Shown: positions 10,740 through 51,848 of the stretch, piece by piece
How positions within the stretch are numbered: the stretch's first letter is position 1
Layout: the number at the start of each line of letters is the position of its first letter
Source: Streptomyces sp. YIM 98790
GTDB taxonomy: Bacteria; Actinomycetota; Actinomycetes; Streptomycetales; Streptomycetaceae
Direction: 5' to 3'
Length of the DNA stretch: 64,000 bases
Assembly: GCF_011421595.1 (NCBI RefSeq)
Contig: NZ_WTLH01000003.1
Location: forward strand, 1 to 64,000
Position numbers and translations under genes: made by a program
The notes under the pieces: generated by a model
The model's input: only the letters and a program-made list of their open reading frames with translations
Databases searched by the model: none
What the model was told of the DNA's origin: nothing

Positions 10740-10784
10740 GGGGCGACGCCACATGGCAAGGCACCGCTATGGGGGGAGAGCGTG

Positions 10785-25651: not shown

Positions 25652-25697
25652 GACCTGCTTCCTTTCCCCGTGCCCCCCTTCGGTCACACCGCAGCCG

Positions 25698-25727: not shown

Positions 25728-25775
25728 GTACACGGGCGGGATTGCGGGTACTCACGAGATTTGGTTGACCCCCTT

Positions 25776-25797
25776 CACAAGATGTGCTCTCCTTGTG
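25776..25797. promoter_or_regulatory. Inverted repeat CACAAG-N10-CTTGTG in the divergent control region
   Basis: Perfect 6-bp half sites (25776-25781 and 25792-25797) lie between the divergent methylase-like gene and the seven-gene PIWI operon. TTGACC stands just upstream on the plus strand at 25765-25770, although no convincing -10 is found at the right distance. The site could be an operator shared by both transcripts; the HTH of the methylase-like protein is one candidate ligand. Confidence 0.3.
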
Positions 25798-25908
25798 TGC
25801 ACTCGCCGCCCGTGGGATCGGCGGACACCGAGGAACGTCCGGGGAGGGGTGTGACGGCTTCCGGCCGCGCACCGCGCCGAGCACGGCGATCACTGGGGAG
25901 GGAGCGGC

Positions 25909-27582
25909 GTGCCGCAGCAGTGGGAGATACCGCAGGGCATGACCGGCGATGCCCGGCTCATCCGCATCGGGGCATCCCTGGCCGGCGACGAGCAGTACGC
26001 CTGCCCGGCCCGCGATGCCGTCAAGGCCCGGCCGGGAGTCCGGCCGCTGCACTGGCCGGCCGGGGGCCGGGAGCGCTACGAGGATTTCCTCCTCGGCCCG
26101 GTCATGGCCGCCCTGGACCGGATCGAGTTCAACGGCGCGCTTCCCGAGGACGTGCTGCGCTCCCCGGCCCGCGAGGGGAAGCCGCTGCATGAGATGCAGC
26201 TCGCCTTCGTACGTCACGCCGTGCGCGCCTTCCACCGGCGCGACCGGCCGGCGCAGGCCCCGCCGGTGGGGCCCGTACGGCTGCCCTGGGTGGTCCAGCG
26301 GGAGCAGCACGGCACGACCTGGGAACACTGGGCCTGGGGCCGCCGGTACGAGAACCCCGAACAGGGGGTGCGGGAGTTCGTCTTCCTCCGCTACGGCCGG
26401 GCCGGGCAGCGGGAACGGGAGGACGCGCAGATCGCCATCGCCGCTTTCGCTGCCGCCTTCGGCAGCCCGGCCCGGATTCCGGTCCCCCGCTGGAAGCCCT
26501 ACCGGCTGGGCCCCGCCCCGGCACCGGTCCGCTGGGTAAGGGTGGCCGAGGTGGGGCTGCGGGACGGCTCGTACAAGCTGCTGTGGCAGGGCACGCCACA
26601 GGCCGCCCAGCAGCACTACGCCGAGCACGGACGTGCCGAGGCGGCGCGCCTGGCGCGCGGGACCGAGGCCGTCCCCGGTTCGGCCTGCGCCGACTGCAAA
26701 CGGCTGTCCGCCTGCCAGACGGTGCCGAGGATTCCCGGTGTGCTGGGCCTGGGCGGCTTCCGCGAGCCGCCGCCCCTGCGCGAGGTGTCGGTCAGCACTC
26801 TGCGGTACCACCGGGAATGCCCGGCGCGGGCGTTCGCCTCCGCCTGCAAGCTGCCCCGGGCCGAGGACGAGTACGACGAGCGGAACCGGCTGGGCAAGGC
26901 CGTGCACCGGGTGCTGGAGCTGGCGCACTCCGGGCGGCAGGGGACGCCGCCCGGTGGTCCGGCCGGCGACGCGTGCGGCCGGGACGGGGTGCCGCAACCG
27001 GACCAGCCCTGGGGCGAGGAGCCGAACCGGGTGACGGGCGAGGCGGCCCGGATCGGTGCCGCGATGCTCCGGCACCACCTGGACGTGTGCCCGTTCCACT
27101 CACGCGAGGTGACTCAGGTGCGGGCCGAGCGCCAGTTCGCCGTGCATGACACGGCGGCGAATGTCATCGTCATCGCCACGCCCGATCTGCTGTACCTGGA
27201 CGCCGGTTCCTGGGTGTGGCGGGAGATCAAGACCACTCAGCGGCGGATGCCCCGGAAGGAAGATCCGGTGCTCGCCTACCCACAGATCGCCCTGGCCACG
27301 GTGCTGCTGGCCGAGGGTGCCCTGGGCGGGGACCGGGACGGCTCGCGGGTGGAGCTGGAGACCCTGCACCCCGACTACGGGGATGTGGAGATCATCGAAC
27401 CCGCCCACGAGCCCGAACGTGTCGCCACCGCCCGCCGGGTGCTGCGGGAATGGGCGGGGCCCTGGCGCGCGGACGAGCTGTTCCCCGCCCGGCCCGCCCC
27501 TGAGACCTGCCGTAGCTGTCCGGTGTCCCAGTGGTGCCCGGCGTCCATGCGTACGGCGCCCGCGGACGGGGGTGCGGCATGA
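25909..27582 (+). CDS. Tandem-duplicated Cas4/RecB-type Fe-S nuclease, first gene of the PIWI operon
   Basis: 557 residues, starting at GTG 25909 behind GGGGAGGGAG. The C-terminal half is a complete RecB/Cas4-like nuclease: C304 in HRECPARAF, GKAVHRVLEL (about 326), D426 in ATPDLLYLD, the E439-I-K441 element in WREIKTTQR, and C534-xx-C537-x5-C543 for a 4Fe-4S cluster. The N-terminal half repeats the cysteine plan (C32 in QYACPARDA; C260-xx-C263-x5-C269) but has no recognisable D...ExK. The protein therefore looks like two nuclease units, one apparently inactive. Such nucleases process DNA ends in AddAB and CRISPR adaptation; no cas gene is nearby. The stop overlaps the next start (ATGA), tying it to the pPIWI-RE genes. 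Confidence 0.75.
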   Translation: MPQQWEIPQGMTGDARLIRIGASLAGDEQYACPARDAVKARPGVRPLHWPAGGRERYEDFLLGPVMAALDRIEFNGALPEDVLRSPAREGKPLHEMQLAFVRHAVRAFHRRDRPAQAPPVGPVRLPWVVQREQHGTTWEHWAWGRRYENPEQGVREFVFLRYGRAGQREREDAQIAIAAFAAAFGSPARIPVPRWKPYRLGPAPAPVRWVRVAEVGLRDGSYKLLWQGTPQAAQQHYAEHGRAEAARLARGTEAVPGSACADCKRLSACQTVPRIPGVLGLGGFREPPPLREVSVSTLRYHRECPARAFASACKLPRAEDEYDERNRLGKAVHRVLELAHSGRQGTPPGGPAGDACGRDGVPQPDQPWGEEPNRVTGEAARIGAAMLRHHLDVCPFHSREVTQVRAERQFAVHDTAANVIVIATPDLLYLDAGSWVWREIKTTQRRMPRKEDPVLAYPQIALATVLLAEGALGGDRDGSRVELETLHPDYGDVEIIEPAHEPERVATARRVLREWAGPWRADELFPARPAPETCRSCPVSQWCPASMRTAPADGGAA

Positions 27583-28817
27583 CGGCGAGGGCTCCGGGCA
27601 CGGCCACCGAGAACGGTGCCGGAGACGAAGACGCGGCCGGAACCGGAGCCGAGAACTTCTTCGCCGGTGAACCACTGCTGCGGCTGGTGGCCACCGCCAT
27701 GGTGCGGCTGTCCCAGCAGCGCACCGTCGGCGACCCGGTGTACGAAGACAGCGTCCAGCAGGCGTACAACCACATCGTGCTGCACTGCCTGCGGCGCGGC
27801 GCGGAACCGCCCGGCAGCGTGCCGGAGCTGGCCCGCTGGGCGGCGGAGAAGCCCCTGGGCGCGTGGGATTTCGGTCTGCCCGAGGAGCTGGCGCCCGAGG
27901 CCGGCACCCATCTGGTGGACGCCGCCACCGGCAGCCCCACCCAGAGCTGTCTGGAGTGGGCCGTCTCGGCCCGGGACCCGGCCGCCGAGCAGTTCGAGAA
28001 CCTGCTGATGAAGGAGGCGCTGGCGGAGAGCCGGGCGGCCGACGCACCCGAGGCGTACGTCGCTTTCCGGCGACTGCTGATCGAGAAGCCCGTGCTGACC
28101 GAGACGGAGCTGGCCGCCCTGAGCGCCAATCTGGACCTCGGCCTGCTGCACGAGACGGTGAAGCGCTGCTACGAGCGCGCACCCGCCTCCTGCCTGCGCG
28201 ACGGGCGGTACACCGCATGCGGCCGGTGCGGCTGCCTGCTGGTGCCGGTCCCCCACGGCGGATTCCGCTGTGAACTCGACGTGTGCCGCCGGTCGCCGGT
28301 GCGGCAGGGCATCTCGTGGACGCCGGCGGACGGCGGCGGGCTGCGCCATCTCAGCCGCCCGCTGCGGACCTTCATCACCGGTCCCGGGCTGGCCGAGACA
28401 GCGCTGGAGTCCGCCCTGGCCAGGGCCGGGCTGACCGCGGAGATGTGGCCGCGCTTCGACACCTACGACCTGCGCGTCACCTTTCCGGACGGCCAGGTGT
28501 GGGCGATCGACGTGAAGGACCGGGCCAACCCGGCGCTGCTGGGCAGGGACACCCGCCCGCTGCGCCAGGACCCGCCGTACGACCGCGGCCTGCTGGTCGT
28601 ACCGCAGTACCGGTTCACCGAGCGGGACGGCTACCGGGAGGTGTTCCGGCATCACGTGCCGGAGGAAGCGGCCGACCGGATCGAGCTGCTCTCCGACCGG
28701 GAGCTGCTCCGGCAGGTCCGCACCCGGCTGCGTGGCCGGAAACGCCCGGAGCGGACACGGAAGAACAGCACGACCGGCACAAGGGGAACCACGGGCAAGG
28801 GAGCGGAAGATGCGTGA
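27579..28817 (+). CDS. Restriction-endonuclease-like protein of the pPIWI-RE module
   Basis: 412 residues, ATG 27579 (four-base overlap with the preceding gene). A zinc-ribbon-like knot is formed by C214-xx-C217 and C231...C236 (ACGRCGCLLVPV; FRCELDVC). A C-terminal PD-(D/E)XK domain follows, with D297 in FDTYDLRVTF and D311-V-K313 in WAIDVKD. Position, architecture and wording match the REase-associated protein of the three-gene pPIWI-RE island described by Burroughs and colleagues. It should cut DNA, probably directed by the PIWI protein and helicase. The residues after 370 are basic (LRGRKRPERTRKN). The downstream start lies eight bases inside this gene. Confidence 0.75.
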   Translation: MTARAPGTATENGAGDEDAAGTGAENFFAGEPLLRLVATAMVRLSQQRTVGDPVYEDSVQQAYNHIVLHCLRRGAEPPGSVPELARWAAEKPLGAWDFGLPEELAPEAGTHLVDAATGSPTQSCLEWAVSARDPAAEQFENLLMKEALAESRAADAPEAYVAFRRLLIEKPVLTETELAALSANLDLGLLHETVKRCYERAPASCLRDGRYTACGRCGCLLVPVPHGGFRCELDVCRRSPVRQGISWTPADGGGLRHLSRPLRTFITGPGLAETALESALARAGLTAEMWPRFDTYDLRVTFPDGQVWAIDVKDRANPALLGRDTRPLRQDPPYDRGLLVVPQYRFTERDGYREVFRHHVPEEAADRIELLSDRELLRQVRTRLRGRKRPERTRKNSTTGTRGTTGKGAEDA

Positions 28818-31800
28818 CCGCAGCGGCTGGCACCGGCGCCTTGCCCGGGAGCTGCGCGACGTGTGGCCCGAGAGCAATGGCGGCTTCGACACCGGCGACC
28901 TGCTGGACGTGGAGCTGGGGCTGTACCTGCTGGAGACGGTGATGCCGGCCCGCACCGCCCTCGACGCCTGGACCCTGTTCGGCGGCTACCCGTACGGAGA
29001 GGTGTTCGGGGATGTGCGCACCGAGGAGCAGCGGCTCCGGATCCGGCGCGGCCGGCACTACCTGTGGGAGATGCGCAGGCCCCGCGAATGGGCACTGGCC
29101 CTGGACGCCTATCGGCGGATGCCGCAGGCCCTTCGCGGCTACGAGCTCGACGGCACGGACCGGGCACCGGTGCGCAGGTCACCGTCACGGGCGGCGGGTC
29201 GTTTCGCGGAGTTCGAGCGGCTGCTGACCCACCCGCCCGAGTTCCTGCGGGTCCCGATGCCGGTCGCCGGTGCCGGGGAGCACCGGTTCGCGGGGCGTGA
29301 CCGCAATCACTCGGTGGACATCACCCGGGATCTGCTGCCCGCGCCGGAGCCGGAGCCGCACCGGCTGGACGAACTGCCGCCGGGCGGGGGCAAACCGATC
29401 GAGGTGACGTGGGAGGAGCTGGCGGCCACGGCCCGCCGGATGGACGAGCTGGAAGCCGGACTGCCCGACGGGCGGCGCGGCGGCTGGGAACGGCGGCTGG
29501 ACCGGGTGCGGCTGCTGGTGCGCAATGAGGCGGAGGAAGCCTTCACCGCGAGCGATGCGCTCCGCGTCGACGGGCTGCTCCATCTGGTGGGCATGGTCGG
29601 CGCGGGCAAGAGCACCCTCCGCGACATCCTCACCTTCTGGGCCGCGACCGAACGCGGCCTGCGCATCACCGTCGTGGTGAGCGATGTGGCGGAGACTCTG
29701 GCCGTCGTGGGTCTGTTCCAGCGCCTTGGGGTGCGGGCGGCCCCGGTTCTGGGGCACTCGACCCGGGAGCGGCACATCCAGCGTCTGCACCGGCGGATCG
29801 CCACCTCGGGCGCGGAGACCGTGCTCACGCATCGCCATCCCGGGTTCGTGCATCTCAGCAGCGCCTGCCCGCTGGACGCGCTGCGCGGCCTGGAGGCCGA
29901 CCGGGCGCTGCGCATCGCCGACGCGCCGTGCACGGCCCTGTTTCCGGTGGTACGCCCGCGGCGGCCGGACTCCCGTGCGCTGGTGGCCACCGGATCCGGA
30001 GCAGAGCCCGGGCAGGGGGAGGAGGAGCCGGAGCCGTCCGGAAATCCCCCGCGGCGTCACGCCTGCCCGCTGTGGAGCCGCTGCCCGCGGCACCACGCCG
30101 CGCGGGAACTCGTCGATGCCCGGGTATGGGTGGCCACCCCAGCAAGCCTGGTGCACAGCACCGTGCCGCGGCCCCTCCAGGAGGAGCGGCTGCGCTACCT
30201 GGAGCTGGCCTGCCGGATGAGCGACCTGATCGTGGTCGACGAGGCCGACCGGGTGCAGATGCATCTGGACAACGCCTTCGCACCGACCGCGACGCTGGTG
30301 GGCAGGGCGTCGAACTCGTGGCTCGACCAGGTCGCGGGGCACAAGCTGACCGAACTCGCGCGCCGTGGGCGGCTCCAGCTCTCCGCCCGGGAAGTCGAGG
30401 ACTGGGTCGGTGCGGTCGACACGGTGATCGCTGCGACCGACCGGATCTACGCCCGGCTGGTCCAGGACGGTGCGCTGCGGACCTGGATCACCCAGGACTA
30501 CTTCAGCGCCCTCACCCTGCATCAGTGGCTGATCAACGCCTGGTTCCCGGATCTGCGGGCGCGCAACCCGGCACCCACGCCGGCGGGCACGACCGCCGAG
30601 GAGCGGATGCGGGCGCGGCAGCGCATCGACGGCGTCCTGGACCGGTTCCGGGACGACCCGTTGCAGCAGCACCCGGTCGAGGATCCGGAGGACGAGCAGA
30701 CCCGGCTGGTCAACGAACTGGTCAGGCTGACCCTTGAACTGCTGCACGCACCGCATGGTTCGGGCAGCCGGGAACGTGTGCGCACGGTGCTGGAGACCCT
30801 GGTGGCCGGCGACCCGGCGATCATGGAGGCCGCAGAGGAGCATGCCCCACGGCTGGAGTTCACCCTGCTGCTGGCGGCCCTGCACCACCGTCTGGACTTC
30901 ATGACGGTGCTGTGGCAGCGCGTCGAGGCCGCGCTCAATCTGGATGCGGCGTCCAACGCGCTCTCCCGCCGCCCCGCCCGGGACTACGAGCCACTGCTGC
31001 CCGAATCCCCCATGGGCAATGTGCTCGGATTCCAGTTCCAGCTCGACGAACGCCGCCAGGGCGGCGGGCAGAGCGGCGAACTGCGCTTCTTCCGGTGCAA
31101 CGGTGTGGGCCGGGAACTGCTGCTGGAACTGCCCCGGCTGCCGCGCGCCGACGGCCGCCCCGGGCCGCACGTCCTGCTGTTGTCCGCGACGAGCTGGGCG
31201 GGAGAGTCCAGCCGGTACCACGTCCACGCGCCGGTGGGGGCCGTGCTGCGGCCCCATCCGGACGAGGTGGCGGCCATCCTGCGCACGGAGTTCCGCAAGC
31301 ACTTCCTCTACTGGCCCGGGACAGGCACCGCCATCCGGCTGTCCGGCTGCGAGCCCGAGCAACGTCCCCAGGCGCTCCAGCAGATGCTGCACCAGCTCGC
31401 CGAGCCCGACCGCACCCTCGCCGGAGCCGTCAGTCCATTGCAGCAGGAACTGGACGACATTGACGACCCGGACCGCAAGCGGCTGCTGCTGCTGGTCGGC
31501 AGCTACGCGGAGGCGGAGCGGGCGGCGGAATACCTGGGCACGATCCCGGAATGGTCCGGACGGGTGATCCGGCTGGTCTCCGACGACGCCGACCTGGACA
31601 CCGCCTGGACCGGTCCCGGCCACGGCGGCCGGGCCGGAACCCTGCGCCGTGGGGATGTCGCCCGGTTCGCCCAGGGCGACGGAGATGTGCTGATCGCCCC
31701 GCTGCTGGCAGTGGAGCGGGGGCACAACATCGTGATCCCCGGCGGCAAGGCGGCCATCGGCACCGTCTGGTTTCTCGCCCGGCCCCACCCGCGCCCGGAT

Positions 31801-32280
31801 GACATCTCCCTGGCCGTACAGGCCATCAACGACTGGGCGGTGCGGCAGTTGCGGGATCCGGCGGGCGAGTTCCGCCAGGCCGCGCTGGCGGCCGGCACGC
31901 CTCACCTGGCCGGCCGGGACTTCCGCAGCCGCGCCCGGCACAAGTGGAACCGCTTCCTGACCCGGCGGCTGTCCTGGACCAGCTTGCCAGATCAGGAGAA
32001 GGCCGCCTTCACCTGGGACCAGCTCGTGGTGATGTGGCAGGTCATCGGCCGGCTCGTGCGCGGCGGAGTACCGGCGCGGGTGGTGTTCGTCGACGCGGCG
32101 TTCTCCCCCCGCGAGGCCGGACTCCAGGCCGAGGACACCCCGGCGACCAGCCTGCTGGCAGGCATGCGCCACCTGCTGGCCCCCTACTTCGACGACGACT
32201 CCGGCCCTCCCGCCATCGACAAGTCACTGGTCACCGCGCTTTACGAACCGCTGTACCGGGCGCTGGCCGACATGGACTGA
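28810..32280 (+). CDS. DinG/XPD-like Fe-S helicase of the pPIWI-RE module
   Basis: 1156 residues. The N-terminal 250 residues have no motor motifs and probably correspond to the pPIWI-RE island domains named Y/Z. The motor has Walker A GMVGAGKST (261-269), four cysteines placed as in XPD/DinG iron-sulfur helicases (C353, C374, C419, C425), VVDEADRVQ with DEAD at 477-480, a motif V element AVERGHNIVIPGGKA (about 972) and motif VI WQVIGRLVRGG (about 1076). Expected action is ATP-driven 5'-3' unwinding of DNA or DNA-RNA hybrids for the PIWI protein. ATG 28810 has AAGGGAG before it and overlaps the REase gene by eight bases. Confidence 0.75.
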   Translation: MRDRSGWHRRLARELRDVWPESNGGFDTGDLLDVELGLYLLETVMPARTALDAWTLFGGYPYGEVFGDVRTEEQRLRIRRGRHYLWEMRRPREWALALDAYRRMPQALRGYELDGTDRAPVRRSPSRAAGRFAEFERLLTHPPEFLRVPMPVAGAGEHRFAGRDRNHSVDITRDLLPAPEPEPHRLDELPPGGGKPIEVTWEELAATARRMDELEAGLPDGRRGGWERRLDRVRLLVRNEAEEAFTASDALRVDGLLHLVGMVGAGKSTLRDILTFWAATERGLRITVVVSDVAETLAVVGLFQRLGVRAAPVLGHSTRERHIQRLHRRIATSGAETVLTHRHPGFVHLSSACPLDALRGLEADRALRIADAPCTALFPVVRPRRPDSRALVATGSGAEPGQGEEEPEPSGNPPRRHACPLWSRCPRHHAARELVDARVWVATPASLVHSTVPRPLQEERLRYLELACRMSDLIVVDEADRVQMHLDNAFAPTATLVGRASNSWLDQVAGHKLTELARRGRLQLSAREVEDWVGAVDTVIAATDRIYARLVQDGALRTWITQDYFSALTLHQWLINAWFPDLRARNPAPTPAGTTAEERMRARQRIDGVLDRFRDDPLQQHPVEDPEDEQTRLVNELVRLTLELLHAPHGSGSRERVRTVLETLVAGDPAIMEAAEEHAPRLEFTLLLAALHHRLDFMTVLWQRVEAALNLDAASNALSRRPARDYEPLLPESPMGNVLGFQFQLDERRQGGGQSGELRFFRCNGVGRELLLELPRLPRADGRPGPHVLLLSATSWAGESSRYHVHAPVGAVLRPHPDEVAAILRTEFRKHFLYWPGTGTAIRLSGCEPEQRPQALQQMLHQLAEPDRTLAGAVSPLQQELDDIDDPDRKRLLLLVGSYAEAERAAEYLGTIPEWSGRVIRLVSDDADLDTAWTGPGHGGRAGTLRRGDVARFAQGDGDVLIAPLLAVERGHNIVIPGGKAAIGTVWFLARPHPRPDDISLAVQAINDWAVRQLRDPAGEFRQAALAAGTPHLAGRDFRSRARHKWNRFLTRRLSWTSLPDQEKAAFTWDQLVVMWQVIGRLVRGGVPARVVFVDAAFSPREAGLQAEDTPATSLLAGMRHLLAPYFDDDSGPPAIDKSLVTALYEPLYRALADMD

Positions 32281-32314
32281 CAGTCCGTCCGACGCTCTCC
32301 GAGGAAAACGCACC

Positions 32315-35185: not shown

Positions 35186-35197
35186 GGAATCCCCTGC

Positions 35198-41100: not shown

Positions 41101-41323
41101 GGGCAGACGGATCCCGGTGCCCAGGCCGTTGGTCACCAGCCGGTTCTTCGGCGCCCGGGCGGATGTCTCGGCCGGGGATGTGCAGGCAAGCCTGGAACGG
41201 CTGGCCGCAAGAGGACAGGTGGCGCTGGAGGGGGCACGCTGGTCCGTCCGCCGCGGCAACGGCAGCAGACCGACGGCGGGTTCCGTCGTCCCCGCTCCCG
41301 CCCGGAGAGGAGCCCAGGCATGA
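35198..41323 (+). CDS. DEDDh exonuclease-DinG helicase-RecQ helicase triple fusion
   Basis: 2041 residues in one uninterrupted frame. A wHTH-like start (about 5-65) leads to a DnaQ-type 3'-5' exonuclease with D108-L-E110, AHNGTTADF (about 192) and H258xxxxD263. Next is a DinG-like helicase: T409GTGKS414, DEAH 624-627, TKGLWQGVDVSD (about 1022) and QLRQAVGRLIRSERHRG (about 1088). KGSANRLSLRAL replaces the usual Cys-containing motif, so this motor lacks the Fe-S cluster. The RecQ helicase follows: LPTGFGKSFTFQLPAL (K1270), DEAH 1375-1378, LTATAN (about 1410), FGLGIDREDIRTV and YQQLGRAGRD (about 1590). RecQ zinc cysteines are C1861, C1879/C1880, C1887 and C1890, with a wHTH at the end. It should combine 5'-3' and 3'-5' unwinding with exonuclease digestion. 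It starts 12 bases after the PIWI gene. Confidence 0.85.
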   Translation: MDERQGPRRVAGAVRDVAALVTGRPGGMTAGELTQAAQARYPRLPAARVGRLLAQALEAGLLREDAGRLYPATVDSRADEPADEPAAGSAPAAGPGARPPGLRGVAVDLESVVRTTAVEPYTERRIFQIGAVRIGTDDTWALGCPSFERFVELPDDSWEIRSDALRARHAEGRVPVEQALAELREFCEGTDLLVAHNGTTADFALLDETCARAEAPPLPGERVDSLYLAHALWPLAGSHRLGALADTHSLNRSDLTWHDAADDARLLARLLDHAAAEYAAWDEEQRDLVASVCPDSPAWRLLGHLAGRHAGLPPGTPLGAPARVGHGEVAVFLARRMAGHPRRRITGRPRRSPIPVGEELRTNGRVDPTLLAGVLHGGTARPRPPQQQMADALHTWIGSGVPAMVEAPTGTGKSLAVLAAALDWLAGDPSRTAVVATYTKQLQNQLARDLTMLEKAVPGLLDSADVVKGSANRLSLRALTRVLADATAATAVAAAGRPGAGGGRGGRLRFLHRTAFRELAVYLLLRLIAAPGPPESWTARSVDPADLPAPFSAWCGRVLPLWLDALSQSGGDFPASGATQLSAHTDTVREALAARRLVLANHAVLLSHLEDLRALSGDVLLVADEAHLLEDAATSALTTELDYGTVESLLAEFDAWLREARAGEARDRVRAAVEELATLLDLEILPRTAGEAFDALGGTDASAVGSRAVTLTSPYGGTAGLAQVRRLLYQVRRLADVLGGTVRALAGYAQAHARTLDFFALERLHALRALADELEDAARRLITDADEVLAPVVVAGPATSPDRSRVDDAGGDREEESEPAASAGVLLPNRVVHAEELEVPQPGMRRYRFRLGSSPVELPADPLWQRFLTAFPRTYYVSATLRVSGQWTFVKERLGLPDRLTTLDLPTPFRLADHAELVCFSDFPSWTEQTEGAMRTTAHQLAGLATQLTSRRADGHGWEGGALVLTTARATAGGITERLTQELRHRDHEAPVLGALTLGNARAFREFADPEDGGGFLVGTKGLWQGVDVSDERRLRLVWINKLPFAPFAAPVVEARRAAVRARAEAAEAEDPDAYATEHYYLPLAALQLRQAVGRLIRSERHRGVVVISDRKLAGHTALRRAYRRAFLGSLDDGLLRPDPVTGETGGGNVVSMHEGWARIWDFYARHGLLTAGKAAELCSPQALQEQTLLPQTRQIRELELTPQEMDRLRAEGGQEPAAEVLRRCALVGGLLRFADDPSAFRLKDAQRAVISAVAEGRNVLGLLPTGFGKSFTFQLPALVLPGVTLVVSPLVALMQDQALELNRSIGGAVRALIAPLRESSSRAGKTEVAEQLTGVRDHGIKLLYVSPERLCQRRFRELVREAVKTGRISRIALDEAHTVVQWDDFRPSMRRVERLLAELRHEAGLPVTALTATANRTVHAGLRQGVFGLPPDPPAGNSPAAHREATRPGVAGSLVTVRENPIRPELAVFRRSMKRSGPATVAGLVEEVADAVTGHAVFYCLTVKEAVTLHARLREYLGETRVRVRRFHGRLTAAEKGAVLTEFREAPREGEEGFAPLLVVATSAFGLGIDREDIRTVFCVSAPTDLAALYQQLGRAGRDVAGTGAAVGPRAPANTALSLLTTRGLRTVSFLTGQDLPPSLLMRMGRAVLRCGTVLDAVGLADGLIGQDLAEGRIGEAQARSSRTAESYATGVMRVLAALADTEALSDLGDFPPECAVRPGELPAREPDAEEGSGREEEDAVVHQVVASVLDLPARRPAGGGDLHRGRLDVAALDRRLAARVAGYRDLADSPAGTWQLLADLHDRGLLDVSAAPSRHWVTGIEIHRRDLPPGFLARLSGRRARAAEEIALLEDFHTDTSTCAHRKFADYFGVAELPEGCCTTAANRCSACWDSGQWPPGESEPATGCALRTARPRPASGGLDTAHGQQRLDDQVLRLVWAMRRGVHANDVCRTLRGEDSYYLPDRGGRGRRIPVPRPLVTSRFFGARADVSAGDVQASLERLAARGQVALEGARWSVRRGNGSRPTAGSVVPAPARRGAQA

Positions 41324-43776
41324 ACGAGCACCGGTCCGGGGAGACCTCGCCCGTGCCGCCGGACGGGGTGTGGCGGCCCTACGACGATCCGCCGCTGCTG
41401 ACCCCCGAACTGGCGCAAGGACTGGCGGACGACAGGCGCGTCGCCGCGCTGCGCCGCTACCTGCTGTCCCTGGTGACCGCCCGGGCGGCCCCGGTGCACG
41501 TCGCGGTGGCGTTCAACGGAGCCTTCTTCGGCTTCGACACGCTGGCCGGAGGCTATCCGGGCGGGCCGCTGGAGTTCGACCGCTTCCCCGAGGTGGCACA
41601 CGGTTCCGTGACCGGAGCCCTCCCGGTCGGCGCCATGGTGCGGGTGGGAACCGGCGCCGCCCTCGTTCCTGGGGAAGTGATGTACAAGGAGGGGGCTCAT
41701 CCCGACTGCGGCCCGGAGGGCGATGTTCCCGCCTGGCTGTCCGGCGCACCCGCCGATGCGGTGGGTCCGGGCCGCCGGGACCGGACGGAGGCGGCCGGGC
41801 CCGTCGAGTCCCGCGAGCGTCTGGTGGTCGACACCGACGCCTTTGGTGCCGGGCTGGTCCGACCTGCACAGGTGAACCGCCTCCGCCGCAAGAACCGGCT
41901 GGACGAATTCGGGCACCTGACCGTCACGGCCCGCCATCCGCGGGAGCGGGCCGACGGCTCGGAGCTGGAGCACTACATGCATCACATGCTGACCACGGGC
42001 CGGGAGCTCCTGCTCAGCGAGCTGGCCCCGATGCCGCTGACCGCGTTCCTGCCGCCCGGCAGCCACGACGGCGAGGCGCTGGAGATGGCCCTCCGGGGCC
42101 TGCTCACCACCGTGAGCCAGGTGCTGCGCTCCCTCGAGAGCGAAACCCGCATGTGGGGCTACTACGCCTTCACCAGGAAGTCCTTCACCGCACGCATGCA
42201 GGACGGCGGGCCGATGGGCGGCCAGGTGCTCGAATCCGTGGTGATCTCGGCGGCCAAGGCCGCCGTGCCCCGGGACCGGAACAGCACCGCCCCTGCCGTC
42301 TACACCGCGCTCGGCACCGCACTCCGCTCCCGGCAGGACGGAGCGCCGCTTCTCCAGGGTGTGGCGTATCCGCTGGCGGTCTGCCATGCCCATGCCCTTG
42401 CGGCGGATCTGGTGACTCGGGAGACCGATGAGACGACCGGGCTGCTGCACAGTCCGGAAGGTGTGCGGCTACGCCTGGACGACCGCTGGCAGGGTGGTGG
42501 TGTCTGGCGTGCCGAGTACCGGCCCCCGGACAGCCGGGAGCCGGTGCACGACGACGCCGGGCTTCCGGTGGATGTGCCCCTGGGCCAGGGATGGTGGGAC
42601 AGTCTGCCACGCACGGCCGAACGTCCGAAGGAGACCCCCGCGGTCGTCCCGCACCCGGAATCGGGACCGGAGCTTCCACCGACCGGCCAGGACGAGCCGG
42701 CCAACGGCGCGCTGCCGTCACCGTCCGGTGCCATGACGGACGCCACTCCCCGACGCCAACTGCCGGGACCGGACCAGCAGCGTGCTTACGAGTGGCCGGA
42801 GGACGAAGACCTGGACGACTGCCGTCTGGTGTCCGTGGCCGACAGTCAGATCTCCTGGAGCCAGTCACTGCGTCTGAGCCACACGGTGGAGGGCTTCCTG
42901 CCCATCCCCGCCAGAATCCTGGAGAAGGCGCCGGGCCTCCCTGGGGAAACATCGCTGCGTCTGGTCCTGCGGCACGAGGGCCACCGGCTCGACCCCGATG
43001 ACGCCGACCATGACACCACGCTGGAGAGCCACCGGGGGCAGTACCGGCTGACCGGGTTCGAGTGGCCGCTGATGTTCTACCCGGGTCTGTGCCTGCGAAT
43101 GACCCACCGTCATGGCAGCCGTGTCATCAACGCAGAGACCATGCTGCTGTCGGCCCCGGAGATGGTGGACGGAGAACTGATCGAGCACTGCTACGACCGC
43201 CGCGTGCTCACCCGGGACGGAGCCTGCCACAGCCGTCGCTCGTCGCTGCATACGGCTGACCTGTCTCCCGAAAGACTCTTGCTGGGGACCGTGCGGCGGC
43301 TGGGCCTCCTGGACAACTACGGCCGGGCCATGCTCCCCGGCGACCGGCTGCTGAACGCCGTCCGCCAGGTCTTCCCCGGGACACGAGGGGAGCAGGGAGC
43401 ACTGAACTCAGCCCTCGACCGGATGCTGGCGGACGGAATCCTCGTCACGGAGCACGGCAGCGAGGACGGCTGTGGCCGCCTCCACTATCCGCCGCGGCCA
43501 CGGGAGAAGCTGGTGCCGCTGGTGTGCTACGTACCGGAACGGAGACCCGTGTCCTCGTCCGTCACAGCCGGACGCCACGGAGGCGCCGGAGACCGGTCAA
43601 CCGGCAGGAGAAGCGGCCACCAGGTCACCGGACACCTCAGGAAGCTTCCGCCGGGTCAGCGAGCCAGTGACGGACAGCGTGCCGCATACCGCAGGGACCG
43701 TGAGCTTCTGGGCATGACCGACGCCGAATTGCCTCCCCGCCACACCTACGTTCCGCCCCACCAGCGCAGTGGCTGA
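41320..43776 (+). CDS. Unrecognised 818-residue component of the PIWI operon
   Basis: I do not recognise the family. ATG 41320 overlaps the stop of the triple-fusion gene (ATGA), so the two are translated together. Two folded regions flank a Pro/Ser/Thr-rich linker (about 425-475). The first (about 1-420) contains VHVAVAFNGAFFGFDTLAGG, YMHHMLTTGRELLLSEL and MWGYYAFTRKSFTARMQ, with no P-loop or nuclease motif. The second (about 480-730) ends in a helical stretch that may be a winged helix (LLGTVRRLGLLDNYGRAM through LNSALDRMLADGIL). The last 80 residues are basic and disordered-looking (TYVPPHQRSG end). It may be an adaptor or nucleic-acid binder of the complex. Confidence 0.6.
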   Translation: MNEHRSGETSPVPPDGVWRPYDDPPLLTPELAQGLADDRRVAALRRYLLSLVTARAAPVHVAVAFNGAFFGFDTLAGGYPGGPLEFDRFPEVAHGSVTGALPVGAMVRVGTGAALVPGEVMYKEGAHPDCGPEGDVPAWLSGAPADAVGPGRRDRTEAAGPVESRERLVVDTDAFGAGLVRPAQVNRLRRKNRLDEFGHLTVTARHPRERADGSELEHYMHHMLTTGRELLLSELAPMPLTAFLPPGSHDGEALEMALRGLLTTVSQVLRSLESETRMWGYYAFTRKSFTARMQDGGPMGGQVLESVVISAAKAAVPRDRNSTAPAVYTALGTALRSRQDGAPLLQGVAYPLAVCHAHALAADLVTRETDETTGLLHSPEGVRLRLDDRWQGGGVWRAEYRPPDSREPVHDDAGLPVDVPLGQGWWDSLPRTAERPKETPAVVPHPESGPELPPTGQDEPANGALPSPSGAMTDATPRRQLPGPDQQRAYEWPEDEDLDDCRLVSVADSQISWSQSLRLSHTVEGFLPIPARILEKAPGLPGETSLRLVLRHEGHRLDPDDADHDTTLESHRGQYRLTGFEWPLMFYPGLCLRMTHRHGSRVINAETMLLSAPEMVDGELIEHCYDRRVLTRDGACHSRRSSLHTADLSPERLLLGTVRRLGLLDNYGRAMLPGDRLLNAVRQVFPGTRGEQGALNSALDRMLADGILVTEHGSEDGCGRLHYPPRPREKLVPLVCYVPERRPVSSSVTAGRHGGAGDRSTGRRSGHQVTGHLRKLPPGQRASDGQRAAYRRDRELLGMTDAELPPRHTYVPPHQRSG

Positions 43777-43850
43777 CCCACAGCCAGTCGTCACCTCGTT
43801 TTCCTCGCACCACCGTCCGACCCGCACCACCGCACACGCACGGAGCTCAT

Positions 43851-46800
43851 GTGACAGCACGCCCCCGGCCAACGCCGTCCGGACCGGATTCCGGCCCCGC
43901 CCGCAAGTCCCCTCCCGCCCCTGAGGTCACCGCCGCACGCGAAGCTCTCACCCAGGCCGTGACGGCCATCCCGCGGCAGCTGCCCACGGCTGCCGGGGAG
44001 ATCTCCCCGGAGGATGTCGAGCACGCTCTCCATTCCGCCTCGGCGCACCATCGTCGCCACACCCTCGCCTCCATGGGGATCCGGGTCAACGCGACGAGGG
44101 TGAGCCCGGCGCTCTGCCGTGACTTCCTCGCCAGACTGCAACGCGCCCCCTTGGAAACCCGTCTCATCCCCGCCGCCCGGCACCTGACGCATCCCCTGGT
44201 GGGCGACCTCGTCGAAACGGCCTACGCAAGTCCGCACCTGCGCTCCCGGATACTGCGTCCGGTGACGGACTTCTGGAGCCCCGCCCTGCTCCGTCTCGCG
44301 CTGCTGGCACACGCCTCGCTGTACAGCACCCAGGCGGAGATCTGGCTCTGGGCCTGCGACCAGCAGTGGTTCACGAACTCCTGCGAACGCCAGGAAGAGC
44401 TGCAGAACCTGCGCCGGGCCGCACTTCGGGTGCACAACCTCGACGGCTCCGCGGAATTCCGGGAGGACGGACGGAAGGAAGTCCGCGACGAGGAAACCCC
44501 CGCCGCCTCCGAGGACCTGCCGGATGCCGGAAACCTCGGCAGCCTTGCCGACGCCCTGGAACGGCTGGACGCCTGCCTGGCCCAGGCCAGGAAAGCCGCG
44601 GACCGCACGGCGGATGCGCTGGAGCGCGAGAACTGCCCGGATCCCGGCGATGTCCACGCCGTGCAGCAGCTCGTCAACGCGTTCGACCACGCCAGGCGGC
44701 TGGTGAGCACCATGGCCGCTGCGGATGCCGACCAGGACGAGGACGTCCCCGCACAGCAGGAGAACCGGAGCTTGTCGGCACTACGCCAGCAGGCCCGGTC
44801 CGTGCAACACCACCACGCCGATGAGTCCCTCCGGGAGGAACTTGGTGCCCTGGCCGGTCTGGAAGCCACCGCGGAGGACGCGGGCCTGAAGCCGGCCGTG
44901 GAGGCAGCCCGTGACTCGGCCGCCGAGCTGCGCGCCAGGCGTACCTGGGACGACGCGGAACGACAGGCAGCACGCTCGCTGCGGGCACTGATCACCATGA
45001 TCGGACTTGAACCTTCCGCCCCGGACTACTCCGATCGGCTCGTGGAGCTTCAGCCGCAGTTCGTCCAGGGATCCAGTCCTGCATGGATGAGGCTGGGCTA
45101 CGACTGCCGTCGACTGGCCCTCAACCGGCCCGGCGAGAGCACGGCCGACGGTCCAGTGGAAGAGCTGCTGGACACCGAGGAGCCTGGGGAGAAGGAAGCC
45201 CGCACCCACGAGTCGCCCACTGTGGCCGTCCGGCCTCCGGCCGCTCCGGAGAAACTGACAAAGCGCGTCGAGACCGCCGCCGTCACCACCGCCGAGCGCG
45301 CACACGACGGCCACGACGACGACAACCCGGCCGCCCGGCCGCCTGAGCCACCCCGCAGCAGCGATATACCCGCCCCGGCCGGTCCCCCTGCCCCGGCGTC
45401 CCCGGCCGGCGCCGCGGACCGGGGCGCCACCCAGGTCTCCGGCTCGGGCGGCGCCGCCTCTTCTCCCCCGGCCCACACCCCTCTCGCGGCATTCATCGCC
45501 GCGGAACGCTACAGCCTGGCTTCGGCGTTGGCCGAGGCAACCGCGGAGTCCACCACTCGCATCGCCGTACTGCGGATCTGCGCATGGTCCATGGGACTGG
45601 CCTCGGACACCGGGAGCTGCGCCGGACAGCTGCGGGCCGCGGTACAGGAGCTGGACGTGCCGACTGTCGCCGCAGATCCGGTGGACCGGTTGCTCGCCGC
45701 CACCGCACTGCTGCACACGGCTGTCCTCACCGGCGATCCCGGGGCGGGCGGGCTGCTGGACGCCCTTGCCGACCGGCTACCGCCGCGCCTCGGCGATGCG
45801 GCACGCGCCGTGGGGCGGCGGGCGCAGCGCGGCATCCTCACCGACTGTCCCGTGCTGTCGGTCGCGGCCGACACCGCGGGGCTGGAGACAGAACTCGCCG
45901 AAGCCCGGACCGAGTGCCGTCTTCTCCTCACTGGCATCCCCAAGTTCGGATTCCGGCCGGCCAGCGCCATCGCCAGGAATCTGCTGGCGCCCGAGGGACG
46001 CGTGGGCAGGCTGCTCTCCCTCGTCGCCGAGGACCGGCGAGAACAGCACCAGGAGATCGGAGAGGAGGTCCGCACCTTCACCGATCCCGCCCTGGTCCGC
46101 GGTCTCGTCGACGAGGTCTACTGGCAGGTCGTGAAGTCGGGCAACCGGCCCCTGGAAGGCAGGAACCGCAATGACCTGGTGCGCGCGGTGCTGGAACGGA
46201 TGCGCCCAGTGCAGGCGTGGGTGTCCTGCGTGCGCCAGCTCCAGGCCAAGGGCAGCTGGGCGGCCCAGGAGGCCCGCGCCATGCTGGACGAAGTGCTGTC
46301 CGCCAAGGACGAGACGTTGGCACAGCTTGCCGAGGGGGAGGCCGAGAGCGACCCGCTGCGGCGGGCTGCGGCGCAGGCAGCGGGGGCGAGGCTGCGGCAC
46401 GTCTGCTCGCTGCTGGAAGGCAGGCGCGAGGCTCCTGCCCAGGAGTTGCCCGCCGGCCTGGCCCGCGCCGGGGAGCTTCTGAAGATCCCCGGCTTCCACT
46501 ACGACGAGTCGTCGGGCGAGGTACTCGGGAAACCGACCATGCAGGCCGTGTGCGATGCCGCGGACCGAACCTGGGAGCAGGCCGCGCGGGCCCACGTGGC
46601 CGCGGAACGCTTCGACACCGCGCATCAGCTGCTGGAGCTTGCCGGACGGGGACTGCTGCCCGGTATCGCCGACGACGTTCTGCCCGACAACCTGGACACG
46701 GTGATCCGCAACAGCGGCAAGCTGGTGGCCGAGGAACTGGCACGAGCGGCCGAGGTCCTCGAGAGGCGGCTTCGGACATCCCGCGTGCACAATGTCGTCG

Positions 46801-49800
46801 ACGAGACTACGGAACGAGCGCTCGAACATCGTCTGCGCGATGCCGAGCCCACCCCCGACCGCAACCTCGCCGCGGTGAGGTCGGAGCAGGCGGCACTCAA
46901 TGCGGAGCTGAACCGGGCCTGGGAACGTGAGAGGGCCCGGTTCCGGGCCCGGCTGGAGGAGCTTCCCGATGCCGCCGAGGCCGACCGGGAACGGGTGCGG
47001 AAGCTGCTGCGGGACGGAGATCTGCTCACCGCGGAGCAGATCCTGAACTCGCTGGCCAAGGGCGAGGGCATTCCGGCACTCCCCGACCGCGGGGAGTTCT
47101 TCCACCGGTTCTTTCCCGCTGTCCCCGATGCGCTGGTGGACGGCATCACTCAGAAGCTGGTCGAGACCGTCCGTGCCCGTGGGGCGTTCGCGGGGCTGCC
47201 GCAGTTGTCCTTCTCCCGGCTGTCCCGGGAGAACGCGATGACGACCGCCGACGCCTTGGAAGCCTGGCGGCAGATGGCCCTGCGGGAGGGCAAGGAGCGC
47301 AGGGAAGGGCTCAAGGAAAGCGAACTGCTTGCCCCCGCCCTGCGGCTGCTGGGTCTGCGCAATCCCCGTCCGGTGCGACAGGACCGCCTGCCGTTCGGCA
47401 AGGACCACCGCTTCCTCGTCCTGCCGGGCCCGGAGCCCCTGGGGGATGCCCCGGTTCCGGAGTTCGGCTCCGCCCGTGGGCACCGCCTGCACATTCTGCT
47501 GGTCTGGGGCGAGCCCGAACCCAAACGGCTGCAGAGCTGGATCGAGGACGACAAGGGGGGAGCCGGTCTGATCGTGGCGCACTTCGGCACCCTCGCCGTC
47601 GGGCGGCGCGCCGAACTCGCCGCCCTCGCCGTCGGCAATCCGAGACCCGTCATCGTGCTCGACGATGCCGCCCTGGCGTATCTGGCGGCACATGGTGACG
47701 GCCAGTGGGACTCCACGCTCCGGGTGCTGCTTCCCTTCTCGGCGGTCAACCCCTACCTGAGCAAGAAGCGCGCCCAGGTGCCGAGGGAGATGTTCTTCGG
47801 GCGCCGCACCGAACTGGAGGAGATCAGCTCGCCCAGGGGCTCCCAGGTTGTCTACGGCGGCCGCGGGCTGGGCAAGTCGGCGCTGCTCCAGGAAGCCGGA
47901 AACCGCTTCCTGGAGCAGAACCCCCGCGCTCGCTGCCGCATCTCGCTGAGTCTGGACAGCGCCGGTTTCGGCACCCTGTCACCCGCCGAGCAGATCTGGG
48001 GGCTGATCGGCCAGGAGCTGGAACGGGCCGAGGTGCTGTCGGTTTCCAAGAAGGCCCGTCGGCTCGCCGGTTCCGACCACGCGCAGGTGGAGGCCTGCAT
48101 CGTGGACTGGCTGGAGGGTGACAGCGACCGGGAACTGCTCGTCCTGCTCGACGAGGCGGACAAGTTCTTCGACAGCGATGCCCCGGAGTTCCTGCAAACC
48201 CGCAGGCTGCGCGACCTCGGCCGGTCGACCAGGGACCGGGTCAAGGTGGTCTTCGCCGGCCTGCGCTCGGTGCAGCGTTTCACCGCGGCCGCCAACTCGC
48301 CGTTCAGCCACCTGGCGCAGGAGCCGGTGGTGGTGGGCCCGCTGAAGCCCGCGGATGCCGCCGAACTGCTCGTGCAGCCCTTGGCGGCGCTGGGCTACCG
48401 GTTCGAGGACGACGATGTGGTCCACTCGGTCCTCGGCCACTGTTCGTACCAGCCCTACCTGATCCAGATGTTCGCTCATCGTCTGGTCCGGGACCTCCAC
48501 CGGCGGCGGCGCATGGCGTCCGATTCCGGGCTGTCTCTCCGGCCTCCGTACACCATCCTGCGCAGCGATGTCAGCTCCGTGCAGTCCGACGAGCGGCTCC
48601 GGGAGTCGATCACCGATACCTTCCGGGACACCCTCCGTCTCGACCCCCGGTACACGGTCATCGCCAATGCCACCGCCTACCACGCGTATCAGCACACCCT
48701 CGAGGCGACGATGAGGGAGTCCGAACTCCGGGCCGCTTGCCTCGACTGGTGGCCGAACGGCTTCCGCAATCTCAACCCGGACGAGTTCCGTGCCTATTTG
48801 ATCGAACTGGAAGGGCTGGGAGTACTGGCCCGGGACCGGGATCGCCGGGGCTGGCATCTGAGCAGCACCAACGCCCTGGGCATGATCGGCGGACTGAGCA
48901 GCGTGGAGAACGAACTCATGTCCGCCGCCGACCAGCCGGAACCGGAGCGGTTCGCCGCCGCCGAACCACGGCACCGGCTGACGGACGGCACCTTCCTGCC
49001 CCTGACCGCCGAGCAGGTGACGGATCTCCTGCGACGCAAGACGACGCAGGCGCGGGTCGTGCTCGGAACGCCTGCCACGGGAGTGGATGTGGTGGCGGAC
49101 CGGCTGCGCCGATGTGCGGCGGACAACGGCTGGCATGCACCGACAGTCGCGGGTCGCGGGGCCTTCCGGCAGGCCCTCGTCGAAGGCAGGCCGGGCGAGC
49201 GTCGGGTGATCATCGACGATCTGACGGGCAAGTCACCGGCTGCCGATTCCTGCCAGGAGGCGGTGGAGTGGGCGCTGACGCGGCTGCCGACGGGGCCGGA
49301 TGTCCACCGGTCTGCGGTGGTGGTCGCCGGTCCCGGTCAGTGGCCTCTCTGGACCGCGGTACTCGGCCCGGACTGCCCCGAGAGTCTGGGCGTGGTGCTG
49401 CTACGGCGCTACACCGAGCACGGCCTTCGGGCCAGGGCGGTGGAGCAGCAGCAGTTCACTTCCGAATCCGCTTTTCCCCGCCTGCTGGAATTGACCGGCG
49501 GCTGGCCGCTGCTGGTGGACAGGGCCATGGCGACCGGGAAGGAGAGCCAAGGACTGGAAGAATTCCAGGAGTGGCTGGACTCCCGCCAGGGAGCGGAGGA
49601 GTTCCTCACCGCCTGCGGAGTCGGAGGCGGTTCGGTGCTGCGCCCTGCGTTCGCCACTCTGGCCGGGTTCTTCCAGCAAGGTGAAGGCAACCTGCCGTTC
49701 GTCGACCTCGCCGAACTCGTCGAGGAGTACGGAACGGCTCCGGAAGCGACAACGGCACCACAGACCGTGCAGATGTTGCACTCCATGGGTCTTTTCCGGC

Positions 49801-49883
49801 GGGACGGTACCGACAGCCACGGTGTGGACCAGTACATCGTCGATCCTGTCGTGCTGCGCTGCTGGCGGAACTCCACGCTCTGA
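43851..49883 (+). CDS. Giant STAND-like ATPase, last gene of the PIWI operon
   Basis: 2010 residues from GTG 43851 (CGGAG at 43841-43845). Residues 1-450 are helical; a Pro/Ala-rich linker (about 480-540) follows. Residues 540-1130 are long, charged and coiled-coil-like (ERARFRARLEELPDAAEADR). A globular region (about 1200-1300) leads into the STAND ATPase, announced by VNPYLSKKRAQVPREMFFGR. Walker A is G1336GRGLGKS1343, Walker B is LLVLLDEADKFF (D1434/E1435), and the lid region is KPADAAELLVQPLAALGYRF (about 1500). Residues about 1715-1960 look like a second, decayed P-loop domain (VVLGTPATGVDV; RRVIIDDLTGK; VVVAGPGQWPLW). STAND proteins commonly sense a ligand and oligomerise on ATP binding, so a phage-sensor or scaffold role is inferred. 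A hairpin terminator follows. Confidence 0.7.
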   Translation: MTARPRPTPSGPDSGPARKSPPAPEVTAAREALTQAVTAIPRQLPTAAGEISPEDVEHALHSASAHHRRHTLASMGIRVNATRVSPALCRDFLARLQRAPLETRLIPAARHLTHPLVGDLVETAYASPHLRSRILRPVTDFWSPALLRLALLAHASLYSTQAEIWLWACDQQWFTNSCERQEELQNLRRAALRVHNLDGSAEFREDGRKEVRDEETPAASEDLPDAGNLGSLADALERLDACLAQARKAADRTADALERENCPDPGDVHAVQQLVNAFDHARRLVSTMAAADADQDEDVPAQQENRSLSALRQQARSVQHHHADESLREELGALAGLEATAEDAGLKPAVEAARDSAAELRARRTWDDAERQAARSLRALITMIGLEPSAPDYSDRLVELQPQFVQGSSPAWMRLGYDCRRLALNRPGESTADGPVEELLDTEEPGEKEARTHESPTVAVRPPAAPEKLTKRVETAAVTTAERAHDGHDDDNPAARPPEPPRSSDIPAPAGPPAPASPAGAADRGATQVSGSGGAASSPPAHTPLAAFIAAERYSLASALAEATAESTTRIAVLRICAWSMGLASDTGSCAGQLRAAVQELDVPTVAADPVDRLLAATALLHTAVLTGDPGAGGLLDALADRLPPRLGDAARAVGRRAQRGILTDCPVLSVAADTAGLETELAEARTECRLLLTGIPKFGFRPASAIARNLLAPEGRVGRLLSLVAEDRREQHQEIGEEVRTFTDPALVRGLVDEVYWQVVKSGNRPLEGRNRNDLVRAVLERMRPVQAWVSCVRQLQAKGSWAAQEARAMLDEVLSAKDETLAQLAEGEAESDPLRRAAAQAAGARLRHVCSLLEGRREAPAQELPAGLARAGELLKIPGFHYDESSGEVLGKPTMQAVCDAADRTWEQAARAHVAAERFDTAHQLLELAGRGLLPGIADDVLPDNLDTVIRNSGKLVAEELARAAEVLERRLRTSRVHNVVDETTERALEHRLRDAEPTPDRNLAAVRSEQAALNAELNRAWERERARFRARLEELPDAAEADRERVRKLLRDGDLLTAEQILNSLAKGEGIPALPDRGEFFHRFFPAVPDALVDGITQKLVETVRARGAFAGLPQLSFSRLSRENAMTTADALEAWRQMALREGKERREGLKESELLAPALRLLGLRNPRPVRQDRLPFGKDHRFLVLPGPEPLGDAPVPEFGSARGHRLHILLVWGEPEPKRLQSWIEDDKGGAGLIVAHFGTLAVGRRAELAALAVGNPRPVIVLDDAALAYLAAHGDGQWDSTLRVLLPFSAVNPYLSKKRAQVPREMFFGRRTELEEISSPRGSQVVYGGRGLGKSALLQEAGNRFLEQNPRARCRISLSLDSAGFGTLSPAEQIWGLIGQELERAEVLSVSKKARRLAGSDHAQVEACIVDWLEGDSDRELLVLLDEADKFFDSDAPEFLQTRRLRDLGRSTRDRVKVVFAGLRSVQRFTAAANSPFSHLAQEPVVVGPLKPADAAELLVQPLAALGYRFEDDDVVHSVLGHCSYQPYLIQMFAHRLVRDLHRRRRMASDSGLSLRPPYTILRSDVSSVQSDERLRESITDTFRDTLRLDPRYTVIANATAYHAYQHTLEATMRESELRAACLDWWPNGFRNLNPDEFRAYLIELEGLGVLARDRDRRGWHLSSTNALGMIGGLSSVENELMSAADQPEPERFAAAEPRHRLTDGTFLPLTAEQVTDLLRRKTTQARVVLGTPATGVDVVADRLRRCAADNGWHAPTVAGRGAFRQALVEGRPGERRVIIDDLTGKSPAADSCQEAVEWALTRLPTGPDVHRSAVVVAGPGQWPLWTAVLGPDCPESLGVVLLRRYTEHGLRARAVEQQQFTSESAFPRLLELTGGWPLLVDRAMATGKESQGLEEFQEWLDSRQGAEEFLTACGVGGGSVLRPAFATLAGFFQQGEGNLPFVDLAELVEEYGTAPEATTAPQTVQMLHSMGLFRRDGTDSHGVDQYIVDPVVLRCWRNSTL

Positions 49884-49898: not shown

Positions 49899-49937
49899 GC
49901 CCGGGCCGACTGCCGCCGAACCTTCTTCGGCCCGGGC
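49899..49937 (+). terminator. Hairpin ending the PIWI operon
   Basis: A perfect 10-bp inverted repeat (GCCCGGGCCG and CGGCCCGGGC) with a 19-base loop starts 16 bases after the STAND gene stop. It marks the end of the seven-gene transcription unit. The remaining bases up to 50053 show nothing recognisable. Confidence 0.6.
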
Positions 49938-51839: not shown

Positions 51840-51848
51840 GGTGGGGTG

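Follow-up and report, generated by a model that had tools for sequence, protein, structure and literature searches.

Organization of the seven-gene run

The first 64,000 nucleotides of contig NZ_WTLH01000003.1 of Streptomyces sp. YIM 98790, hereafter the window, contain a run of seven genes oriented on the positive strand (g1 to g7, Table 1), the fourth of which encodes a pPIWI-RE protein. These genes likely constitute two abutting modules within a defence island, module A (g1 to g4) and module B (g5 to g7), rather than one machine. Coordinates of the open reading frames (ORFs) were taken from an ORF listing with translation, and junction lengths were computed from these coordinates. A sequence-only reading of this DNA had described seven positive-strand genes with overlaps of 4, 8 and 4 bp and gaps of 34, 12 and 74 bp, flanked by a divergent region and a hairpin. 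All six junctions were reproduced; from g1 to g7 these are overlaps of 4 and 8 bp, gaps of 34 and 12 bp, an overlap of 4 bp and a gap of 74 bp. Both flanking features are present, with no T-run seen after the hairpin. Profile matches in Pfam, PADLOC and NCBIfam lie far beyond chance for five of the seven proteins (g1 to g5).

Table 1. Features of the window; the seven-gene run and its borders are given first, followed by the neighbouring genes.
Feature	Position	Strand	Assignment and evidence
g1	25909..27582	+	PD-(D/E)XK nuclease, RecB/Cas4-like; PF12705 4.7e-25, PprPDDEXK 1.8e-91
g2	27579..28817	+	pPIWI-RE island Y domain and restriction endonuclease (REase); PF18156 2e-41, PF18154 1.7e-38, PprRE 2.6e-80
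g3	28810..32280	+	DinG-type helicase with Z domain; PF18155 8.6e-41, PprDinG 2.1e-255
g4	32315..35185	+	pPIWI-RE protein (X, MID, RNaseH); PF13111 1e-105, PF13032 1.1e-60, PF18157 1.5e-24, PprPIWI 1.3e-181
g5	35198..41323	+	DEDDh exonuclease-DinG-RecQ fusion, 2041 amino acids (aa); RNase_T, DinG and RecQ profile matches
g6	41320..43776	+	818-aa protein, unknown fold; no family match
g7	43851..49883	+	2010-aa STAND-like P-loop ATPase; AAA_22 below cut-off (9.9e-6), Walker motifs
Divergent intergenic region, N6 DNA methyltransferase/g1	25715..25908		Coordinates
Hairpin 3′ of g7	49899..49937		Perfect inverted repeat, 11-bp arms, 17-nt loop
Ser/Thr kinase with TPR	6068-7786	-	
AIPR	7869-10013	+	
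RHS protein	10665-15251	+	T7SS-signal and Ntox21 matches
Type I restriction-modification hsdR/S/M	16934-23351	-	
N6 DNA methyltransferase, 756 aa, divergent from g1	23444..25714	-	PF02384 2.7e-25

The pPIWI-RE unit, g1 to g4

The pPIWI-RE three-gene island has been described as comprising REase, DinG and pPIWI genes in strict order (Burroughs, Iyer and Aravind 2013, PMC3702460), an order that g2, g3 and g4 satisfy with closely placed ends (overlap of 8 bp, gap of 34 bp). Profile matches to g2, g3 and g4 confirm that the sequence-only reading had correctly identified a core of pPIWI protein, REase and DinG helicase. The cysteines of g3 at positions 353, 374, 419 and 425 are located between the Walker A and DEAD motifs. 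By motif inspection, g1 carries cysteines C304, C534, C537 and C543, a pattern that we take to fit the cluster of an AddB/Cas4-like (AddB-type) Fe-S nuclease; together with the PF12705 and PprPDDEXK matches, these positions bear out the earlier call of an Fe-S-type nuclease.

PF13111, PF18157 and PF13032 score above the Pfam cut-off in g4, so the X, MID and RNaseH domains are present, while no match was found in a PDB sequence search or in PHROGs. The family-defining Arg and Glu were examined in the pPIWI-RE alignment, where an Arg within 'LRLVRV' is common to most rows. At two places in the RNaseH strands, g4 has R and H where the fused pPIWI-RE::ATPase protein of Azospirillum, described below, has D and D; some other aligned members have D at one of the two. 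The catalytic Asp pair of an active RNA-guided PIWI nuclease is absent from g4 at these places, which are aligned to the Azospirillum fusion and not to PsPIWI-RE, the characterized protein from Pseudomonas stutzeri. Because R and H replace D relative to the Azospirillum protein, g4 is predicted to be a nuclease-dead binder.

A class sample of 394 genomes and 14 control genomes was searched with PF13032, which is present in 17 class genomes (the window's genome included) and in none of the controls. Seventeen other class-sample loci were read, 16 of at least 15 kb and one of 3 kb, with a weak, stop-bearing match (G215) left out; g1 to g4 occur together in six of these, and the remaining loci lack a g1 match, are divergent or are cut. 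Across the genus, PF13032 occurs in 70 of 246 genomes by whole-genome coordinates. The 17 genus loci that were fetched are the best-scoring pPIWI-RE matches and form a biased subset (G422 left out), within which 16 carry all four genes; the full set is also carried by two further genomes, G582 and G429. The g1 to g4 genes are the usual streptomycete pPIWI-RE unit, and because they occur together in both the class-sample and the genus loci, g1 is a core gene. The sequence-only reading had treated g1 as an addition to the core, a view that gives way to its regular presence in streptomycete loci and to the existence of its own PADLOC model, PprPDDEXK. The streptomycete pPIWI-RE core is now set at four genes. 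Common as the family is in the genus, experimental work on pPIWI-RE was found only in PMC10991935 among the open-licence matches listed.

A second, divergent type of actinobacterial pPIWI-RE was observed in the G131, G309 and G132 loci and in S. zagrosensis (contig C24, L163), with weak g2 and g3 similarity and no g1 match. The g4 profile misses divergent pPIWI-RE proteins, such as the Microvirga and Bradyrhizobium fusions.

The g5 to g7 module

The call of g5 as an exonuclease-DinG-RecQ fusion is upheld by its RNase_T, DinG and RecQ matches. The DEDDh exonuclease residues are D108, E110, D202, H258 and D263, and a Cys cluster lies in the RecQ part towards the protein end. The DinG part lacks an Fe-S set, because a single Cys is located between its Walker A and DEAH motifs. 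As the sequence-only reading had it, g6 is an 818-residue protein of unknown kind, having no match in Pfam, PADLOC, NCBIfam or PHROGs; a PDB sequence search likewise gave no match, and scans of viral contigs gave no relative. Its predicted structure, made from a three-row alignment, was too poor (mean pLDDT 33) for any conclusion. The assignment of g7 as a P-loop ATPase agrees with the presence of a Walker A motif (GGRGLGKS at 1336) and a Walker B motif (LLDEADKF at 1432), with profile matches to AAA_22 (26.3 bits against a cut-off of 27) and AAA_16 that both fall below the Pfam cut-off. No match to g7 was found in PHROGs or a PDB sequence search, nor to its C-terminal half in phage records, and a model of its core (pLDDT 44) was too poor to use, so no conclusion was drawn from it.

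Both g6 and g7 are conserved in other genomes. In a genus search that scored few candidates per genome (four for g6), g6 was found in 24 of 246 genomes; three of 148 class genomes also have it, the window's genome being counted in both. Twenty g6-bearing genus genomes were fetched besides the window, with G420, G544 and G580 left out, and g7 follows g6 in all 19 full-length loci. Six have g5, g6 and g7 (G402, with g7 in two frames, G440, G429, G398, G582 and G498), 13 have g6 and g7 without g5 (including G426, cut 5′ by a contig end, and G467, with g7 in two frames), and G153 has a g6 fragment alone; g5 was looked for beside g6 or pPIWI-RE only, and most g6 loci were read to ~3.5 kb past g7. 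A g7 scan of genome contigs confirmed g5-g6-g7 in two named loci, S. aidingensis (91% identity) and S. zagrosensis (38%), and the same three genes are found in G131, a genome from another family.

On plasmids, g6 and g7 occur without g5 in Streptantibioticus cattleyicolor, Streptomyces AD2-2 (broken frames), S. xanthophaeus and NBC_01546. An S. hirsutus plasmid has a C-terminal g6 relative only, and an NBC_01724 plasmid has a g7 relative without g6. The g5 to g7 genes are a separate, recurrent three-gene module, of which g6 and g7 are the minimal unit.

Association of the two modules

With the window and S. aidingensis counted as one, nine g5-g7 loci were compared, six without pPIWI-RE nearby and three with it. 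For those six, the genome has no pPIWI-RE (G402, G440), or the nearest is on another contig (G398, G131 and S. zagrosensis) or 0.9 Mb away (G498). In S. zagrosensis, the ~9 kb 5′ of the module contain no pPIWI-RE core gene, a view of adjacency bounded by short contigs. The three loci with pPIWI-RE differ in layout: in the window g1-g4 precede g5-g7 by 12 bp, in G429 the two sets stand tail to tail, and in G582 g5-g7 are followed by g1-g4 ~7 kb further on.

The sequence-only reading had assigned all seven genes to one machine and had proposed counting how often the additional genes adjoin pPIWI-RE. By this count adjacency is rare: g5, g6 and g7 are found in none of the 17 class-sample loci and none of the stretches of the 17 high-scoring genus loci, and of the 70 pPIWI-bearing genus genomes, three (the window, G429 and G582) have g6 less than 30 kb from pPIWI-RE. 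The single-machine claim did not survive it, as g5 to g7 mostly stand apart from pPIWI-RE. Across the 246 genus genomes, PF13032 is present in 7 of the 24 with g6 and 63 of the 222 without it (Fisher p 1.0).

g7-type ATPases fused to pPIWI-RE

A tblastn search with g7 picked out 28 of 72,556 plasmid records. In Azospirillum oryzae, Microvirga VF16 and Bradyrhizobium elkanii, a g7-type ATPase is fused to pPIWI-RE as one protein of 3100-3394 aa, with the ATPase C-terminal and the X, MID and RNaseH domains N-terminal, and REase and DinG-Z genes lie 5′ of the fusion genes. In A. ramasamyi the fusion protein is split over two frames. A relative of the Microvirga pPIWI-RE was found in 14 plasmid records, seven of which (three genera) also carry the fused-type ATPase. 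Among the signs that the g7 ATPase family and pPIWI-RE may be functionally linked, these fusions are the strongest. The g6-linked actinobacterial g7 proteins make up a clade of their own in the ATPase tree, and the fused ATPases lie apart, among proteobacterial relatives. Because the fused Bradyrhizobium ATPase pairs with an unfused one from Agrobacterium, the tree suggests, with the uncertainty that its long branches carry, that pPIWI-RE and a g7-type ATPase were joined more than once.

Four other g7-type ATPases, from Salinibacter, Thiodictyon, Agrobacterium and S. fungicidicus, have no g2, g3 or g4 profile match nearby, which on plasmids is what the absence of pPIWI-RE refers to throughout. 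The genes 3′ of the fusions and the partners of these four ATPases encode a common region with an aligned R-x4-H motif (seven proteins), a motif given as a HEPN RNase signature in PMC3710099. In L064 (17054-18631), L065 (16931-18547), L066 (16443-18092) and L078 (16274-17863), this Rx4H (HEPN-like) region is combined with an AAA_33-type P-loop domain, the match being below the Pfam cut-off in L078 and L066 lying outside the Pfam testing; such genes directly follow g7-type ATPases with or without pPIWI-RE. Shorter Rx4H-motif genes are located 3′ of giant g7-type ATPases in L070 (15024-16157), L075 (16400-17554) and L076 (18178-19710), with no pPIWI-RE seen nearby. A giant g7-type ATPase with a short Rx4H partner looks like a widespread two-gene system. 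The possibility that g6 is a relative of the Rx4H-motif partners was dropped, as no similarity was found.

Interpretation

Both modules of the two-module reading are probably anti-invader, and we infer defence as their purpose, as well as every biochemical step proposed for either. In module A, a guide-binding, probably nuclease-dead pPIWI-RE would mark an invader RNA:DNA hybrid or R-loop, which DinG-Z would open or translocate and the Y-REase would cut, while the g1 nuclease may trim or make guides. In module B, the g5 fusion would unwind abnormal DNA during replication or recombination and resect it. The giant STAND-like ATPase g7 is a putative switch, and g6, which usually accompanies it, a possible adaptor or effector.

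Several observations weigh against keeping the modules apart. The 12-bp spacing and shared strand of g4 and g5 are kept in S. aidingensis, and neither a terminator nor a sigma-70-like promoter was found at this junction (35000-35400), a weak test in a high-GC actinomycete; in this lineage the seven genes may be cotranscribed, with a single transcript across the 12-bp junction. PF13032 is present in five of seven g5-bearing genus genomes and in 65 of 239 others (p 0.02, or 0.055 without the window), in Fisher tests uncorrected for kinship and with G420, G544, G580 and G426 counted as g5-negative. A plasmid of S. xanthophaeus carries distant relatives of g2 and g3 a few kb 5′ of g6 and g7, and in three alphaproteobacterial genera the g7-type ATPase is fused to pPIWI-RE outright. 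Finally, three g6/pPIWI-RE pairs lie within 30 kb of each other where random placement would give 0.06; because of this excess the two modules can be said to cluster, as defence-island genes do, but without a fixed order. The S. xanthophaeus stretch (L069 834-7944) also contains, beside the distant REase and DinG relatives, an 848-aa third gene that was considered as a divergent pPIWI-RE and dropped, having no Pfam match.

We regard it as a speculative possibility that giant g7-type ATPases serve as a shared signalling hub for varied invader sensors, and that modules A and B are joined here as one operon for PIWI-gated abortive-type defence. On this view the g7-type ATPase, seen fused to pPIWI-RE in alphaproteobacteria, would work with the g5 enzyme and g6 in streptomycetes.

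It appears unlikely that the seven genes form one PIWI-centred machine here, in which pPIWI-RE recognition would activate g7 and g6 and g5 would process, the alphaproteobacterial fusion being the same machine rearranged. The tight same-strand junctions kept in S. aidingensis, the fusions with REase and DinG-Z genes on Azospirillum, Microvirga and Bradyrhizobium plasmids and the clustering of g6 with pPIWI-RE above random would all fit such a machine, but six of the nine g5-g7 loci have no pPIWI-RE nearby, the other three come in three layouts, and g5-g7 are missing from all 17 class-sample loci. In addition, g6 has no genome-level association with PF13032, and the fused ATPases fall outside the Streptomyces g7 clade, that of Bradyrhizobium pairing on long branches with the unfused Agrobacterium protein. 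That g5 to g7 serve DNA repair or the maintenance of a plasmid or other element, placed beside pPIWI-RE by chance and not as a defence system, is very improbable: RecQ, DinG and the DEDDh exonuclease are repair-type domains and g6 and g7 have relatives on large plasmids, but the patchy presence of g6 (24/246 genus and 3/148 class genomes) fits conflict systems better, and closeness to pPIWI-RE exceeds random placement.

The two-module reading brings out a recurrent exonuclease-DinG-RecQ, g6 and ATPase module, whose ATPase belongs to a family with pPIWI-RE fusions in other bacteria. Modules A and B can be cloned singly or jointly in Streptomyces, so that their coupling is directly testable.

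The defence island and its exchange with S. aidingensis

The gene for the 756-aa N6 DNA methyltransferase upstream of g1 could be part of either the hsd operon or the pPIWI-RE unit. Among loci carrying g1-g4, such a gene lies close to g1 in 3 of 6 from the class, 10 of 16 from the genus and 1 of 2 others. Its treatment as a certain pPIWI-RE member was dropped, since the window copy also heads the hsd operon and its tree gave no resolution; the same pair of methyltransferase and HsdM is found in G518, a genome without a PF13032 match. In relatives, a minus-strand Ser/Thr kinase gene lies between the methyltransferase and g1 (L165 1669-3156 and the similar L166 1631-3118), Pfam-tested in two and assigned by similarity in the others; the window has no Ser/Thr kinase there. 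In two loci showing no N6 methyltransferase at this place, an NB-ARC-TPR gene is located 5′ of g1 (L176 17680-19998, L180 17950-19998). The hsdS/hsdM stretch of the window (20001-22000) has a GC content of 0.59, compared with 0.67 on both sides. Past the hairpin, a 742-aa minus-strand ORF (50001-52229) has no Pfam or PHROGs match and aligns to S. aidingensis in pieces only.

Identity between the window and S. aidingensis is 99.6% over 6123-14338 and stays at 96-100% per kilobase up to ~37500, inside g5. Identity in the rest of g5, g6 and g7 is 86-97% (92% in g6-g7), and the aligned parts of the flanks are 78-96% identical. The ~31-kb block contains the kinase gene, AIPR, the RHS gene, the type I restriction-modification genes, the methyltransferase, g1 to g4 and the start of g5. 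This pattern of identity suggests that the block was probably exchanged recently between the lineages of the window and S. aidingensis, independently of g6 and g7.

Comparison with known systems

The sequence-only reading had noted no known description of this gene composition, in keeping with which no description of the g5-g7 module or of a pPIWI-RE::ATPase fusion was found among the listed matches in open-licence PMC texts; PMC7641849 was set aside as a word match only ('Piwi-related'). The RecQ-like and DinG parts of g5 resemble DpdF (2.4e-58) and the type IV CRISPR-associated DinG (1.6e-64), respectively, in PADLOC. However, g5 scores 146.5 bits against an NCBIfam cut-off of 550 for DpdF and falls outside that family, and no Dpd match was found in the other scanned window proteins, with a weak Cas4 match in g1 only (0.009).

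PsPIWI-RE belongs to the same protein family as g4 and is likewise encoded beside DinG and nuclease genes. It is an active RNA-guided DNA nuclease requiring D525 and D610, whereas g4 has no Asp at two RNaseH places, which were set by other members of the family and not by PsPIWI-RE (PMC10991935). The likeness to the published three-gene island (PMC3702460) lies in g2, g3 and g4, which encode Y-REase, Z-DinG and X-MID-RNaseH proteins in the published order and with close spacing. The window differs from it in the PD-(D/E)XK gene g1 directly 5′, for which a PADLOC model exists, and many of its relatives have an N6 methyltransferase and a Ser/Thr kinase nearby, whereas the REase of the triad is described there as having no associated methylase. 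The alphaproteobacterial fusion loci, annotated in RefSeq as 'RNaseH domain-containing protein', share with the window an ATPase region like the C-terminal part of g7, the pPIWI-RE modules and the REase and DinG-Z genes. They differ in joining the ATPase and pPIWI-RE in a single polypeptide, in lacking any match to the g5 and g6 profiles over the stretch, and in carrying an Rx4H and AAA_33 gene 3′ and a divergent WYL gene 5′.

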